From Halorubrum halophilum (lineage in GTDB: Archaea > Halobacteriota > Halobacteria > Halobacteriales > Haloferacaceae), in assembly GCF_000739595.1 (NCBI RefSeq), contig NZ_BBJP01000092.1, positions 1 through 56,193 of the forward strand: a DNA stretch of 56,193 nt, in the 5' to 3' direction. The notes under the pieces were generated by a model that saw nothing but the letters and a program-made list of their open reading frames with translations, was not told the origin of the DNA and searched no databases. Both the position numbers and the translations under genes were made by a program. How positions within the stretch are numbered: the first letter of the stretch is position 1; each line of letters starts with the position of its first letter. Shown here in pieces: positions 1,384 to 56,193 of the stretch.

Positions 1384-1814
1384 CGAGAGTGAGTATTGCA
1401 GATCGGTGGCAGTGATGGAGTATTTAAATAACCGTGAACGTCAGCAGCAGTTCCTTATAAATGCGGTGCGGTGGCGCGCCCCGGTGAGCGGCCGCCATCG
1501 GCGGCCGCGAACTGCCGGTGCGAGGGAGTCGCTGGCGGCGGGAGCCGCCAGCGACGAGGCTGGGGAGGCGTGAGGCTGCGGTTGCGGTTGCGGTGCGGGC
1601 GGGGTGGGACTCAAAGTGGCAGCCGCTGCGGGCGGCGCAGGCGACGTAAGCACCGCAGCGAGCAACGCGAGCGAGGAGCACAGCGAGCGTGCGCCGCCCG
1701 CAGCGGCTGGGGCTTTGGACGTGTTCACCGCCGTACCCTTATAAACAGCCGACGGCAACACCACTCGATAGGTTATAAACAACCGTTTCACCAATTCGCT
1801 ATCCCTACTCCCGA
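1384..1814 (+). repeat. Dispersed structured repeat, copy A (long form)
   Basis: This gene-free stretch between two convergent genes holds a complete copy of the window's repeat family, in the orientation I call forward. An imperfect terminal inverted repeat starts near 1384 (..GAGTATTGCAGATCGGTGG) and ends near 1814 (..CCTACTCCCG). TATA-like boxes TATTTAAATA (1421-1430) and TTATAAA (1456-1462) precede the core. The core can pair end to end (GCGGTG 1468-1473 with CACCGC 1726-1731) and contains a 9-bp hairpin (1488-1508), a perfect 12-bp hairpin with GGGA loop (1528-1555) and a perfect 20-bp stem (1620-1639 with 1690-1709). No protein is likely from it. Confidence 0.85.
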
Positions 1815-12346: not shown

Positions 12347-13375
12347 TCACTCCGCGACCGCGAACGAGATGCCGTCCGCGGAGTCGTAGTCGACGACCTC
12401 GACGTCCTCGTAGGTGAGCTCGTCGAGCGGCACGTCGGCGATCTCGATCCGGGGGCGCTCGCGCGGCTCCCGCGAGAGCTGTTCGAGCAGGCCGGGGACG
12501 TGGTCGTACCCCTCCTCACCGTTCGTCTCGTCCGGGGCGGTCCGCTCGACCCAGCTCTTCACGTCGAGGTAGTCGGCCTTGCTCTCGACGTTGGCGAGGC
12601 GGTCCTGCACGTACGGGAGGTTGTTCGCGTACCACTTCCCGCGCTCGCCGCGCCCGCAGTAGACGTGCGCGTCGACGACGGTGTGGCCGAATTCGCCCAC
12701 CTCGAACCCCGTCCGCTGGGCGAGCGCGTTCGCGAGCAGCGCGTACGCGGCGATGTTGAACGGCACCCCGAGCGCGATGTCGCCCGAGCGCTGCGTGAGG
12801 TGGAGGTTGAGTCGACCGTCCTGCACGTTCACGACGAAGGTGTAGTGACACGGCGGCAGCGTCGAGACGGCGGCGTTGGCGGGATGCCACGCGTTCACGA
12901 CCATCCGGCGCGACTGCGGGTTCTCGTCGAGGGTGTCGAGTACGTACTGGATCTGATCGAACGTCCGGCGCTCGGCGCCGTCAGGTCCTTCCTCGACGTT
13001 CACCCAGCGGTGCGCGTTCTCGGGCCAGGTCTCGCCCGGAAGCGCGTCGACGCCGTCCGGCACGGGGAACCGACGCCAGAACCGGCCGTAGGCGGTGTCG
13101 AGGCGGCCCTCCTCGTCGGCCCACGCGTCCCAGATCTTCGTCTCCTCGCGGAGGTTCCGGACGTGCTCCTCGCCGGAGAGGTACCAGAGCACCTCGTGGA
13201 TCAGCGAGTTCCAGCGATAGCCGTCCATTTTCTTGGTCGTGAGGAGGGGGAACCCATCCGCGAGGTCGACGGTGTACTGCCCGCTGAACGTCGCGATCGT
13301 GTCGACGCCGGTTCGGTTCGGCTTGTACGTGCCCGTCGACAGGGTGTCGTCGACGAGATCGAGGTACTGTTGCAT
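12347..13375 (-). CDS. thyA: Thymidylate synthase ThyA
   Basis: Methylates dUMP to dTMP using methylenetetrahydrofolate. The 342-residue protein has RTGVDT near the N-terminus, the Arg pair RRM (156-158), catalytic Cys176 in LPPCHY, the dUMP-binding QRSGDIALGVPFN (195-207) and HVYCGRGE in the late part. It is longer than the bacterial enzyme because of a haloarchaeal insertion and tail. It lies directly upstream of folA; the classic ThyA-FolA pairing recycles dihydrofolate. Repeat copy B begins about 158 bp upstream of its start. Confidence 0.96.
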   Translation of the reverse strand: MQQYLDLVDDTLSTGTYKPNRTGVDTIATFSGQYTVDLADGFPLLTTKKMDGYRWNSLIHEVLWYLSGEEHVRNLREETKIWDAWADEEGRLDTAYGRFWRRFPVPDGVDALPGETWPENAHRWVNVEEGPDGAERRTFDQIQYVLDTLDENPQSRRMVVNAWHPANAAVSTLPPCHYTFVVNVQDGRLNLHLTQRSGDIALGVPFNIAAYALLANALAQRTGFEVGEFGHTVVDAHVYCGRGERGKWYANNLPYVQDRLANVESKADYLDVKSWVERTAPDETNGEEGYDHVPGLLEQLSREPRERPRIEIADVPLDELTYEDVEVVDYDSADGISFAVAE

Positions 13376-13532: not shown

Positions 13533-13822
13533 CTTATAAATGGCTGATACTGGATCGGCGGTAAACAACTTCAAAGCCCCAGCCGCGAGGACGGCGCACA
13601 CTCGTTGTGCTCCTCGCTCGTTCGCTCCGCTCACTCGCTGCGGTGCTTACGTCGTCTGCGCCGCCCTCGCGGCTGCCCCTTTGAGCCCCACCCCGCACCG
13701 CACCTCACGCCTCCCCAGCCTCGTCGCTGGCGGCTGTCGCCGCCAGCGACTCCCTCGCGCGGCGCTCCTCGCGCCCGTTGGGCGCTCGGAGGCGCGCGCC
13801 AACCGCAGATCGGTTTATAAAT
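13533..13822 (-). repeat. Dispersed structured repeat, copy B (short form)
   Basis: A core copy in reverse orientation, bounded on both sides by TTATAAA (13534-13540 and 13814-13820), without the outer terminal inverted repeats seen in copies A, C and E. The long stem pairs 13580-13598 with 13657-13675 (one G-U pair) and the 12-bp hairpin with core GTCGCTGGCGGC is intact at about 13723-13750. It sits between thyA and tRNA-Gly. The rest of 13376-13532 and 13823-13903 shows no gene. Confidence 0.85.
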
Positions 13823-13903
13823 AGTCGATAGAGACGTCAGCAGTCAGAGCTCCGAGAAAGGGAGAATCGAAAAGCAGCGCTAATGACTGAAACAGCCAGA
13901 GGG

Positions 13904-13976
13904 TGCACCGGCCGAGACTCCCGTGAGCGAAGCGAACGGGAGGCAGGCCGGTGTATCTTCGAGCGTAGCGAGAAGA
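13904..13976. repeat. Duplicated tRNA-Gly 3' end and two loop-sharing hairpins
   Basis: TGCACCGGCCGAGA at 13904-13917 repeats exactly the tRNA-Gly 3' end at 13977-13990, 73 bp away. Between them are two hairpins with different stems but nearly the same loop: CTCCCGT/ACGGGAG (13918-13942, loop GAGCGAAGCGA) and ATCTTC/GAAGAT (13955-13977, loop GAGCGTAGCGA). The duplication looks like a scar of integration at a tRNA gene or a slipped copy. Confidence 0.5.
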
Positions 13977-14047
13977 TGCACCGGCCGAGATTTGAACTCG
14001 GGTTGCAACCATGGCAAGGTTGCGTGATACCACTACACTACCGGTGC
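13977..14047 (-). tRNA. tRNA-Gly (anticodon GCC)
   Basis: A 71-nt cloverleaf: acceptor GCACCGG/CCGGTGC with discriminator A, D-arm GTGTAGTGGTATCAC, anticodon stem CAACC/GGTTG with loop TTGCCAT (anticodon GCC), and T-arm CGAGTTCAAATCTCG. No intron and no encoded CCA. Repeat copy B lies downstream. Confidence 0.95.
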
Positions 14048-20821: not shown

Positions 20822-21472
20822 GTGAGCGACACCGTCCTTGTTCCCGGCGGCCGCGACGTGCGCGCCACCCTCGACACCGCCGCGAGCGACGGCGGTGGCG
20901 ACGCCATCGGCGATGGTTCCCGCGCCGACAGCGTCGTCGTCGCCTGCCCGCCACACCCCCAGCAGCGCGGCCACCGCGGCGACGAGCGCCTCACCGCCGT
21001 CAGCGACGCCCTGACCGATCGGGGGATCGACTGCCTCCGGTTCGACTACGGCGACTGGGACGAGGGGTACGGCGAGAGCACCGACGCCGACAACGCGGTC
21101 GGCTGGGCCGCCGACCGCTACGAGCGCGTCGGGTTGTTCGGCTTCTCGTTCGGAGCCACGGTCGCGCTCGTCACGGCGGCATCTCGCCCCGGACTCGCCG
21201 GGGTCTGCGCCCTCGCCCCGACCGCGCGGCTGAACCCCGACGTCGACGCGGTCGCGGCCCTCGACGACCTCGTCGATCTCGGCGTGGCGACGCAGATACT
21301 GTACGCGACCCGTGACTCGACGGCCGACTGGGAGCCCGTGGTGGAGCGGGCGAAAGAGCTCGGGATCGAGACGCGGTCGTTCGAGTCCGACCACTTCTTC
21401 GTGGGGCGGTCCGGTGACGTGGGAGAGGCGGTGGCGGGATTTCTCGGAGGGCGGTTACTTGAGGATTTATAA
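20822..21472 (+). CDS. Alpha/beta hydrolase
   Basis: A 216-residue hydrolase starting with GTG. The nucleophile elbow is GFSFGA (Ser near residue 107), strands DCLRFDYGDW before it and QILYATRDS (likely acid Asp) after it, and the late SDHFF supplies the probable catalytic His. It resembles the short dienelactone-hydrolase or acyl-peptidase-like hydrolases of archaea. The substrate is unknown. It is probably in one operon with the upstream gene. Repeat copy C starts 84 bp after its stop. Confidence 0.85.
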   Translation: MSDTVLVPGGRDVRATLDTAASDGGGDAIGDGSRADSVVVACPPHPQQRGHRGDERLTAVSDALTDRGIDCLRFDYGDWDEGYGESTDADNAVGWAADRYERVGLFGFSFGATVALVTAASRPGLAGVCALAPTARLNPDVDAVAALDDLVDLGVATQILYATRDSTADWEPVVERAKELGIETRSFESDHFFVGRSGDVGEAVAGFLGGRLLEDL

Positions 21473-21556
21473 GCGGCGTCTGTGGGTGTATCGGATTCTT
21501 CGCGCCGACTCGATCCGCTTCGGTCTGCCGTCCGTCTGGGAATTGCGATGAGTGAT

Positions 21557-21997
21557 AGCGGGAGTAGGTATAGCAAATTGGTGAAACGGTTGTTTATAAG
21601 CGATCGAGTGGCGTCGTTGTCGGCCGTTTATATGAGATCGGCGCGTCTGCGGTGAACATTTTCAAAGCCCCAGCCGCTGAGGACGGCGCACGCTCGCTGC
21701 GCTCCTCGCTCGCGTTGCTCGCTGTGGTGCTTACGTCGCCTGCGCCGCCCTCAGCGGCTGCCCCTTTGAACCCCACCCCGCACCGCAACCACACAATACC
21801 TCACGCCTCCCCAGCCTCGTCGGGCGCCCTCCGCGTTGCTCCGGACGCCCGACTCCCTCGCACCGGCGGTTCGCGGCCCTCCGGGCCGCTCACCGGTGCG
21901 CGCCACCGCGGTAGACTTTTATAAGATATCGTCGCCATCGCTCATACCCTTTTAAATACTCTCTCGCCGCCACCGATCTGCAACACCTACTCCCGCT
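21557..21997 (-). repeat. Dispersed structured repeat, copy C (long form)
   Basis: This gene-free stretch between two convergent genes is a complete long copy in reverse orientation. Terminal inverted repeats are clear: AGCGGGAGTAGGTATAGCA at 21557-21575 and the complement of AGCGGGAGTAGGTGTTGCA at 21979-21997. Stem positions 21671-21690 pair with 21741-21760 (one G-U). The middle hairpin differs from A, B and E: GTCGGGCG pairs with CGCCCGAC, so pairing is kept with a new sequence. No direct target repeat is evident beside the ends. Confidence 0.88.
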
Positions 21998-22072
21998 CTC
22001 GACCGAGAGATAATCGCTTAGCGACCGTCGTTTCAGACAAAAACACTTCTGAGCGGGATCCGAGGACCCTGG

Positions 22073-22402
22073 TCAGTTATACCCTCTCCACCGGTGCCCG
22101 CACTCCTTGCATTTAAAGAACCGCGTCGGAGGCTCGTCGGCGGCGCCGGTCTGTTTGATCGTGTACCACGCCTCGCCGTGGCCGCACTCGTCGCAGACGA
22201 TGTCGTTGGCGGTCGGTTTTCCCTCGAAGTTCGCGCCCTCCTCGGTCTCGATCACCTCGTCGCCGGTCTGTTCGGTCGTCGACTCGAACTCGGCCGCGAG
22301 CCCCTCGTCGCGCTCGGCGGTGCCGCCGCAGTCGTCGTTCTGACACACCATCTCTCCGTCGCGAGAGACCATCATCGAGCCGCAGTCGTCACAGAACTGC
22401 AT
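22073..22402 (-). CDS. tfs: Transcription factor S (RNA cleavage factor, TFIIS/RPB9-like)
   Basis: Induces cleavage of backtracked transcripts by archaeal RNA polymerase. The 109-residue protein has an N-terminal zinc ribbon (Cys4, Cys7, Cys20, Cys25), an acidic linker, and a C-terminal ribbon with CDECG...KCKECG. The loop GAADEPPTRF carries the Asp-Glu pair that reaches the polymerase active site, so it is expected to be active. Length is typical. A TATA-like CTAAACC lies near -27. Confidence 0.94.
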   Translation of the reverse strand: MQFCDDCGSMMVSRDGEMVCQNDDCGGTAERDEGLAAEFESTTEQTGDEVIETEEGANFEGKPTANDIVCDECGHGEAWYTIKQTGAADEPPTRFFKCKECGHRWRGYN

Positions 22403-28506: not shown

Positions 28507-28580
28507 TGCCGGAGCGTTGACGGCGCGGGAGGTAAGGGGTTACGAAGCGATCGCATCTCGACTGGCTGCCGACACGGGTG

Positions 28581-28876
28581 TTTATAAACGGCTGCGGTGG
28601 CGCGCCGCCGAGCGGTCGCCATCGGCGACCGCGAGGAGCCCGCGAGGGACGCGGTGAGCGCTCGAAGAGCGCGAACCGCGAGGCTGGGGAGGTGTGAGGC
28701 TGCGGTTTGCGGTGCGGGGCGGGACTCAAAGGGGAGCCGGGAGAACGGCGCAGGCGACGCAAGCACTGGAAGGAGCGAACGAAGTGAGCGACTGAAGCGC
28801 GCAGCGAGCGTGCGCCGTTCTCCCGGCTGGGGCTTTGGCGGTGTTCGCAGTTGATCCGTCAGCAACCATTTATAAA
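28581..28876 (+). repeat. Dispersed structured repeat, copy D (short form, most divergent)
   Basis: The 456-bp gap between pan and pdaD holds a forward core copy bounded by TTTATAAA at 28581-28588 and at 28869-28876, with no outer terminal inverted repeats. Stem sequences differ from the other copies but remain paired: 28735-28752 with 28811-28828 is an 18-bp perfect stem, and the closing pair is CTGCG (28592-28596) with CGCAG (28846-28850) in place of GCGGTG/CACCGC. The motifs GGCTGGGGAGG, GGGACTCAAAGGGG and GGGGCTTTGG are retained. Confidence 0.85.
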
Positions 28877-28962
28877 CGATCGACTGAGGATTCAAACAAG
28901 ATCGCCGCTGATCCACGGTCAGAAGTCCCACAGCACTCGAAAACGACTCCCGCCCAGTACGC

Positions 28963-31338: not shown

Positions 31339-31486
31339 ACCTGCGAAACGGAACGAGACCGTCTCCGACGGCGAAATGCGCGTCGGCGCGGAGGTCGTTC
31401 GAACTGGCTGGCTCTGTTGACCGCTCGTTTTTTAAGCGGACTTCGGTCCCGAACAGTTAGACGGAGGGGGCCGTCTCTCGATCGAC

Positions 31487-31985
31487 TACGGGAGTGGGTA
31501 TATCGATACGGTAGAGTGGTTGTTTATAAGTGATCGAGTGGTGTTGCTGTCGGCTGTTTATAAGTGATTGATGGTAAATCGGCGGTGAACACCTCTAAAG
31601 CCCCAGCCGACGAGGCGGGCGCACGCTCGCTGCGCTCCTCACTCGCTCGCTAGCGCTCCCTCGTTGCGGTGCTTACGTCGTCATCAGAACGCTTTGCGTT
31701 CTGATTGGCTCACGAGAGTTCCGCTCTCGTGAACGCCTGCGCCCGCCTCGTCGGCTGCCCCTTTGAGTCCCACCCGCCCACAATCGCACCGCACCTCACG
31801 CCTCCCCAGCCTCGTCGCTGGCGGCTGTCGCCGCCAGCGACTCCCTCGCGCGGCGCTGTTCGCGCCCTTCGGGCGCTCACAGGCGCGCGCCGACCGCCTC
31901 ATTGATTTATAAGCGATCGTTGCGGTCGCTTATGGCTATATAAATACTGAATCGTCATCACCGATCTGCAACACTTACTCCCGCT
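31487..31985 (-). repeat. Dispersed structured repeat, copy E (long form with extra hairpins)
   Basis: This copy fills most of the 802-bp gene-free stretch before dnaG, in reverse orientation. Ends: CGGGAGTGGGTAT near 31489 and the complement of AGCGGGAGTAAGT ending at 31985. The long stem is a perfect 20 bp (31604-31623 with 31738-31757). Its tip contains an insertion absent from other copies: two perfect hairpins, ATCAGAACGC/GCGTTCTGAT (31683-31705) and CACGAGAG/CTCTCGTG (31711-31731). The remaining flanks, 31339-31486 and 31986-32107, show no gene. Confidence 0.87.
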
Positions 31986-56009: not shown

Positions 56010-56193
56010 AGCGGGAGTAGGTGTTGCAGTTCGGTGGTGGCGATCCAGTATTTAAATAATCGTGAGCGCTAGCGACGATCACTTATAATGAACGATGCGG
56101 TCGGCGCGCCCCGGTGAGCGGCCGCCATCGGCGGCCGCGAACCGCCGGTGCGAGGGAGTCGCTGGCGGCGGTAGTACGTGAGAGATGTTTTGG
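56010..56193 (+). repeat. Dispersed structured repeat, copy F (interrupted at window edge)
   Basis: A forward copy with a clear terminal repeat AGCGGGAGTAGGTGTTGCAG at 56010, TATTTAAATA at 56049-56058, TTATAA at 56083 and the first hairpin (about 56118-56138). Similarity to copy A stops in the 5' arm of the second hairpin, after 56171; the final 22 bases (GTAGTACGTGAGAG..) are unrelated to the family. The copy is either broken by an insertion or deletion, or cut by a rearrangement. Confidence 0.8.

Follow-up and report, generated by a model that had tools for sequence, protein, structure and literature searches.

Results

Six copies of one element in the window

The window (the whole stretch of 56,193 nucleotides analyzed here) contains six copies, A to F, of a dispersed element (Table 1), all at the places where an initial annotation of this DNA had located them. 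A 294-position profile built from the complete copies detects the five complete copies in the 56-kb window with E-values of 1e-62 to 1e-73. The ends proposed earlier need partial revision: the six places stand, but the ends given for copies A, C and E (1384 and 1814 in copy A, for example) are the inner arms of a larger transposon-like shell. These three copies represent the long form of the element, and a scan for the inner shell arms in copies B and D found none. Beyond copy E, at a distance of ∼80 bp (near 31410), there is a shell end, GGCTCTGTTGACC. Seven other species of the genus also carry the element at the site of copy B, which is empty in two (G052 and G054), and copy C is absent from several relatives.

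Table 1. Copies of the element in the window, with the parts of copy A
Feature	Position	Strand	Remarks
Copy A, long form	1384..1814	+	Inner inverted arms CGAGAGTGAGT...ACTCCCG enclose structured core 1452-1746; convergent genes on either side end at 1271 and 1848
Left TATA-like motif, copy A	1455..1461	+	TTATAAA
P1 and hairpin 1, copy A	1475..1522	+	P1 pairs 1475-1480 with 1517-1522; hairpin 1 has a tandem GA/GA mismatch
Hairpin 2, copy A	1528..1555	+	GTCGCTGGCGGC-GGGA-GCCGCCAGCGAC
Invariant motif, copy A	1556..1575	+	GAGGCTGGGGAGGCGTGAGG; apparently unpaired, first bases adjoin hairpin 2
Long-stem unit, copy A	1602..1717	+	GGGTGGGACTCAAAG ... CTTTG; portion common to Halobacteriales
Right TATA-like motif, copy A	1739..1745	+	TTATAAA
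Copy B, core only	13533..13823	-	Between a gene starting at 13375 (-) and tRNA-Gly 13977-14047 (-)
Copy C, long form	21559..21995	-	Core 21626-21927; neighboring genes convergent, with ends at 21472 and 22073
Copy D, core only	28580..28877	+	Flanked by two genes on the - strand
Copy E, long form	31489..31983	-	Core 31556-31915; long stem has two additional hairpins in its apical part
Copy F, partial	56010..56193	+	Core part 56080-56176; truncated where the contig ends

Two local rearrangements were seen next to these copies. Near copy B (window 13900-14047), the 3′ end of the tRNA-Gly gene (GCACCGGCCGAGA...) occurs a second time next to the gene, separated from it by a short inverted repeat, and the same layout is found in G014, G004, G011 and G047; the duplicated end may be a scar left by an integrated element. 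In G011 (L070, G011:C12), ∼11 kb separates the flanks of site C (window 21472-22094), which are oppositely oriented there, and one of the two still adjoins a copy of the element; this may reflect an inversion by recombination between inverted copies.

Copy number and distribution

A BLAST search with copy A, in which 40 candidates were scored, puts the number of copies in the host genome at 40 or more. The 20-nt motif GAGGCTGGGGAGGCGTGAGG, with up to two mismatches, occurs there at 153 places, while the reversed control has 0 in this genome and 0 or 1 in each genome searched, supporting the earlier view that these are not chance palindromes. Across all 52 genomes of the genus the motif is found at 9-194 places per genome, the highest number being that of the single-contig genome G051. 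Close relatives of the element are present in a few other genera of the family, with 100 places in G129 and 18 in G088.

A covariance-model search of other haloarchaea, proposed in the initial annotation, was carried out with a model of the long-stem unit (R1), which matched 171 of 243 Halobacteriales genomes and 59 of 77 genera. The element is not confined to Halorubrum, and its long-stem unit is widespread in Halobacteriales. In a phylum-wide draw of 197 genomes no match fell outside this order, and all 25 matching genomes lay inside it. The exact foot of the unit (GGGTGGGACTGAAAGGGG) is found in named records of Halobaculum, Haloparvum, Haloarcula, Natrinema, Natronococcus, Haladaptatus and Halorussus, among others, and nearly all the stretches listed for it are haloarchaeal. 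We rejected a plasmid or phage origin, since only two plasmid records matched (the best from Halorubrum salinarum) and a search of phages gave no match.

Outside Halorubrum the unit is often solitary or forms back-to-back inverted pairs (15 pairs among 86 units) with linkers of ∼17-29 bp, an arrangement that is not the rule in Halorubrum. A YCAACCGGCTACG-like sequence recurs in the linkers of several such pairs (L269, L280, L284, L294, L296 and others). Other genera also have minimal forms (L275, L335), in which hardly any of the stem is left.

The claim that this is not a known RNA is borne out by Rfam, where no family matched the element at either gathering or permissive thresholds. We found no description of it in the literature searched by topic and by exact motif, although an earlier mention in a genome paper is possible.

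Anatomy of the fold

The initial description of the hairpins, long stem, CAAAG/CTTTG clamp and 3x3 GGG/GGG loop is correct. Read 5′ to 3′ as in copy A, the element begins with a TATA-like motif, GCGGTGGCGCG, hairpin 1, CGAGGGA and hairpin 2, and continues with the near-invariant GAGGCTGGGGAGGCGTGAGG, a variable G-rich linker, GGGACTCAAAGGGG and the long stem. The long stem, which CAAAG and CTTTG clamp across the GGG/GGG loop, has a conserved inner loop region (GACGTAAGCACCGCA ... GAGGAGCGCAGCGAG) and is followed by GGCTGGGGCTTTG, a tail with TGTTCACCGC and a second TATA-like motif. The unit measures ∼107-130 nt and the whole Halorubrum core ∼290 nt. In 112 distinct sequences, two helices of hairpin 1 are separated by its tandem GA/GA mismatch. 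Covariation speaks neither for nor against the outer closing stem (GCGGT/ACCGC), which is almost invariant.

The TATA-like motifs are strongly enriched. The left box (TTATAAA-like) sits 11-14 nt upstream of GCGGTGG in most copies and is found in 83 of 107 copies, compared with 4.8 expected after shuffling; the right motif is found in 107 of 143 copies, compared with 4.1 expected. We considered the left box as a promoter for the whole structure and gave it no weight in this role, because its spacing would put the transcription start inside P1.

The 3′ arm of the long stem together with the tail (GGCTGGGGCTTTG...TTATAAA) is repeated in tandem 2-7 times in G051 (L139-L178, L426-L435), G065 and G062. 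The repeats are spaced at 57 bp and affect 25 of the 63 places in G051; none was seen in the host genome or in G055. Several 3′ arms facing a single 5′ arm could allow alternative pairing.

Covariation and the folding strand

To quantify pairing, we used an alignment of 41 copies from several families for the long-stem unit and one of 40 copies for P1, hairpin 1 and hairpin 2. Both confirm that the two arms change together. In the long-stem unit, two-sided changes are found in 24 of 30 pairs tested, 96.7% of cells are paired (79.2% after shuffling), and the covariation score is 0.450, compared with 0.138 for shuffled alignments; none of 500 shuffles scored as high, and sliding the 3′ side by 1-3 columns reduces the score to ≤0.065. 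For P1 and the two hairpins the corresponding values are 16 of 24 pairs, 96.0% paired and a score of 0.413 (0.163 shuffled; 0 of 500 shuffles as high). The shuffle figures are not probabilities, because the copies are related, and the argument is carried by the effect size and the slid controls. Covariation thus extends over five helices of the long-stem unit as well as P1, hairpin 1 and hairpin 2, and the larger alignment, in which a lack of significant covariation had been named as the outcome that would overturn the proposal, leaves it standing. Even the outer clamp participates, CAAAG/CTTTG becoming GAAAG/CTTTC in other families. The unpaired motifs are constant, as had been noticed, and the mismatched loops (GGG/GGG, GA/GA and the inner loop of the long stem) are kept while the stems change.

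Imperfect pairs in the long-stem arms identify the strand that folds. On the strand chosen in the initial annotation, G.T outnumbers A.C by 82 to 15 overall, by 25 to 8 in Halorubrum-type units (p=0.0046) and by 57 to 7 in the remaining units (p=8e-11). Hairpin 2 shows no such difference (10 and 8), and P1 contains 31 cells with G.U or U.G. The excess of G.T over A.C indicates that this orientation, as proposed, is the folding strand; selection or tolerance acts on it. Single-stranded DNA likewise tolerates G.T better than A.C. The excess therefore favors RNA, and single-stranded DNA is also compatible with it.

Presence, absence and a MITE-like shell

Individual sites are often empty in sister species. 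At site s3 the element is present in G065, G051 and G016, and eleven aligned relatives have instead a short unrelated gap adjoining flank that is ∼93-95% identical; element-free counterparts were found at further sites. Clean empty sites were also sought for core-only copies, and none was obtained, the flanks being too diverged.

In Halorubrum, 21 of 94 copies (about a quarter) have the inner arms CGGGAGT...ACTCCCG, and some long copies additionally have outer ends GGCTCTGTTGAAA next to 8-bp target duplications. In G051, three such copies (626-650 bp) are bounded by the duplications AAATCGGT, GGTAGCAC and AATTTCAT, each matching at 8 of 8 positions. The initial annotation had proposed a candidate undescribed RNA family and had not recognized the element as a known MITE. 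A multicopy, covarying fold absent from Rfam is indeed present, but the second part needs correction for about one quarter of the Halorubrum copies, which are cargo of an inverted-end shell bounded by 8-bp target duplications.

The GGCTCTGTTGAAA shell, mostly with target duplications of 7-8 bp, also bears unrelated cargo, including small open reading frames, in L401, L407, L410, L411 and L420, and is possibly a cassette-like mobile family. At L408, an IS5-family transposase gene (PF01609; NF033579) lies between similar ends; because its flanks do not match as a duplication, we regard this enzyme only as a candidate partner. Y1 transposases are few (1-4 per genome), and none is flanked by the element; the ten Y1 loci inspected in five genomes gave a single partial match overall, far from the gene. 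A REP/RAYT link through Y1 transposases is thus unsupported.

Change at orthologous loci

To follow the long stem at single loci, we compared orthologous copies in G051, G055, G062 and G065. At 53 pair positions both sides differ and are still paired, while only 4 one-sided differences preserve pairing and 7 break it in one species. Hairpin 2 is often exchanged whole for another recurrent type, both between loci and at site B. The proposal that covariation is the signature of selection for structure must therefore be qualified: the fold does covary, but selection is not the whole source, since the arms change almost only in concert and hairpins are swapped whole. This pattern, read from sequence comparison, implies gene conversion between copies, to which template switching within palindromes perhaps adds, and these processes would yield part of the covariation.

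Could such processes explain everything? A palindrome kept complementary by template switching and gene conversion, spread by shells and functionless as a folded molecule, would give the lopsided counts above and recurrent hairpin types that move whole between loci, and shells with 8-bp duplications do carry the element. However, correction of palindromes should erase the mismatched GGG/GGG and GA/GA loops, yet these hardly vary, and it should act equally on G.T and A.C, whose counts in fact differ; conversion or template switching alone is therefore insufficient. The element also occurs without any observed shell in dozens of genera. We consider such a passive passenger improbable.

The same data bear on the possibility that the copies are small RNA genes, or lie within transcripts, with an RNA product that acts in trans or binds a protein, the structure being maintained by selection on this RNA. 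This would fit the covariation in all the helices listed above, the restriction of G.U-type pairs to one strand (including those in P1), the conserved internal-loop motifs, the fixed places of the TATA-like boxes on both sides of the Halorubrum element and its occurrence in most Halobacteriales genera. Against it, the boxes were not seen in the inspected copies from other genera, the left one is misplaced for a start outside P1, sites are often empty in sister species, and the ratio of double to single changes is far above that usual for RNA. On balance a structured RNA family is the main rival, though an unlikely one.

Two observations on orientation were made during this comparison. The core is reversed inside a seemingly orthologous shell (G051 165218, G065 176804, G055 165335, in coordinates of the joined stretches), which suggests inversion or conversion in place. 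An apparent inversion at locus Y was discarded, as it reflects the orientation of the surrounding region.

Gene neighborhood

Gene context was evaluated with simple gene calls on 1.6 Mb, in 20-kb stretches. All 93 copies with neighbors on both sides are intergenic, overlapping no gene: 41 lie in convergent, 42 in tandem and 10 in divergent gaps. Occupied gaps number 41 of 287 convergent, 41 of 723 tandem and 10 of 293 divergent ones. In tandem gaps the element shows no preference for orientation, reading with the genes in 23 cases and against them in 19, and its median distance is 106 nt to the stop codon and 161 nt to the start codon.

The enrichment in convergent gaps, the proximity to stop rather than start codons and the great stability of the stems are what one would expect of a bidirectional 3′-end element that stabilizes or terminates the transcripts of its neighbors and is most useful between convergent genes. 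Yet the orientation of neighboring genes is ignored although one strand folds best, a U-rich terminator tract is not evident in the copies inspected, and most convergent gaps have no element. Placement alone proves no function, because promoter-sparing insertion of any kind would give the same pattern. A role of this kind is accordingly very doubtful.

Discussion

Relation to known repeats

Like bacterial REP/BIME repeats, the element has many intergenic copies between convergent or unidirectional genes (PMC3733652, PMC2817692), and its units are palindromic, with constant foot bases and G.T pairs in the stems; bacterial REPs have the same placement and G.T-rich stems (PMC3733652). The opposite-orientation pairs with short linkers in other haloarchaeal genera resemble BIMEs, and the variable occupancy of sites between species likewise fits the REP/BIME pattern. 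In contrast to REPs, which measure 20-40 bp, the unit is several times longer, contains several hairpins and conserved internal loops, has the foot GGGTGGGACTSAAAG with no GTAG/CGTC tag seen, and flanks no RAYT/Y1 gene at the ten Y1 loci inspected. We do not class it as a REP, because both a short tagged palindrome and a RAYT neighbor were looked for and neither was found.

The long Halorubrum copies resemble MITEs in their inverted GGCTCTGTTGAAA ends, 8-bp duplications and lack of a transposase gene; unlike a MITE, the core is only one of several cargoes of the shell and is widespread without it. The PATEs and SMRs of Haloquadratum walsbyi are likewise transposase-free, dispersed haloarchaeal repeats with palindromes (PMC3119063). 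PATEs have palindromes near their ends and neither terminal inverted repeats nor target duplications, both of which the long copies have, and SMR-A repeats, of ∼110 bp, target other mobile elements (PMC3119063). In its level of covariation and its conserved loop motifs it is comparable to the structured RNA families of Rfam, while its copy number and mobility distinguish it from most RNA genes.

A proposed mobile repeat with a folded strand

The explanation that we prefer, and hold tentatively at a little under even confidence, is that the element is a large REP/BIME-like mobile repeat of haloarchaea whose folded strand is recognized in trans. The family is dispersed and non-coding, and its folding strand is built of modules: hairpin 1 with its tandem GA mismatch, hairpin 2, the constant single-stranded motif, and the long stem clamped by CAAAG-GGG...GGG-CTTTG. 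We infer that a protein acting in trans recognizes this strand, as single-stranded DNA or as a transcript, and helps to copy it to new intergenic places, so that the element would spread non-autonomously as bacterial REP/BIME repeats do, with insertion near gene 3′ ends being tolerated. In Halorubrum, the MITE-like shell would provide a second route, ferrying the element as cargo, and gene conversion among the many copies would keep them similar and exchange whole hairpins. Mobility, rather than a host function, would be the main reason for its upkeep.

Three findings count against a mobile repeat. No mobilizing enzyme was found, the unit exceeds REPs in length, and orthologous copies still pair long after they were inserted, which a dead mobile copy would not need unless conversion renews it. 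A haloarchaea-wide structured RNA, made from up to ∼200 chromosomal copies, might also assemble with protein into a complex that has its own function, such as directing the spread of the element or working at the ends of genes. In our estimate this is distinctly unlikely; if real, the RNA would be a new class, among the highest-copy structured RNAs known in archaea.

Transcription would make the element an abundant RNA class missing from Rfam; without transcription, it would be an archaeal counterpart of REP/BIME repeats, mobilized by a putative enzyme. In either case, this is an order-wide, large and easily aligned family of folded repeats whose hosts can be manipulated genetically, and clear predictions follow as to the folding strand, the loops that matter and the loci to delete. 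It also offers a natural experiment on the concerted evolution of hairpin arms, in which hairpins are rewritten whole in place while the loop motifs remain fixed.

One further likeness concerns the foot of the long stem (window 1602-1620; GGGTGGGACTGAAAG in other genera), which seems to resemble the 3′ end of haloarchaeal CRISPR repeats (GTGGGATTGAAGC) and may do so by coincidence.
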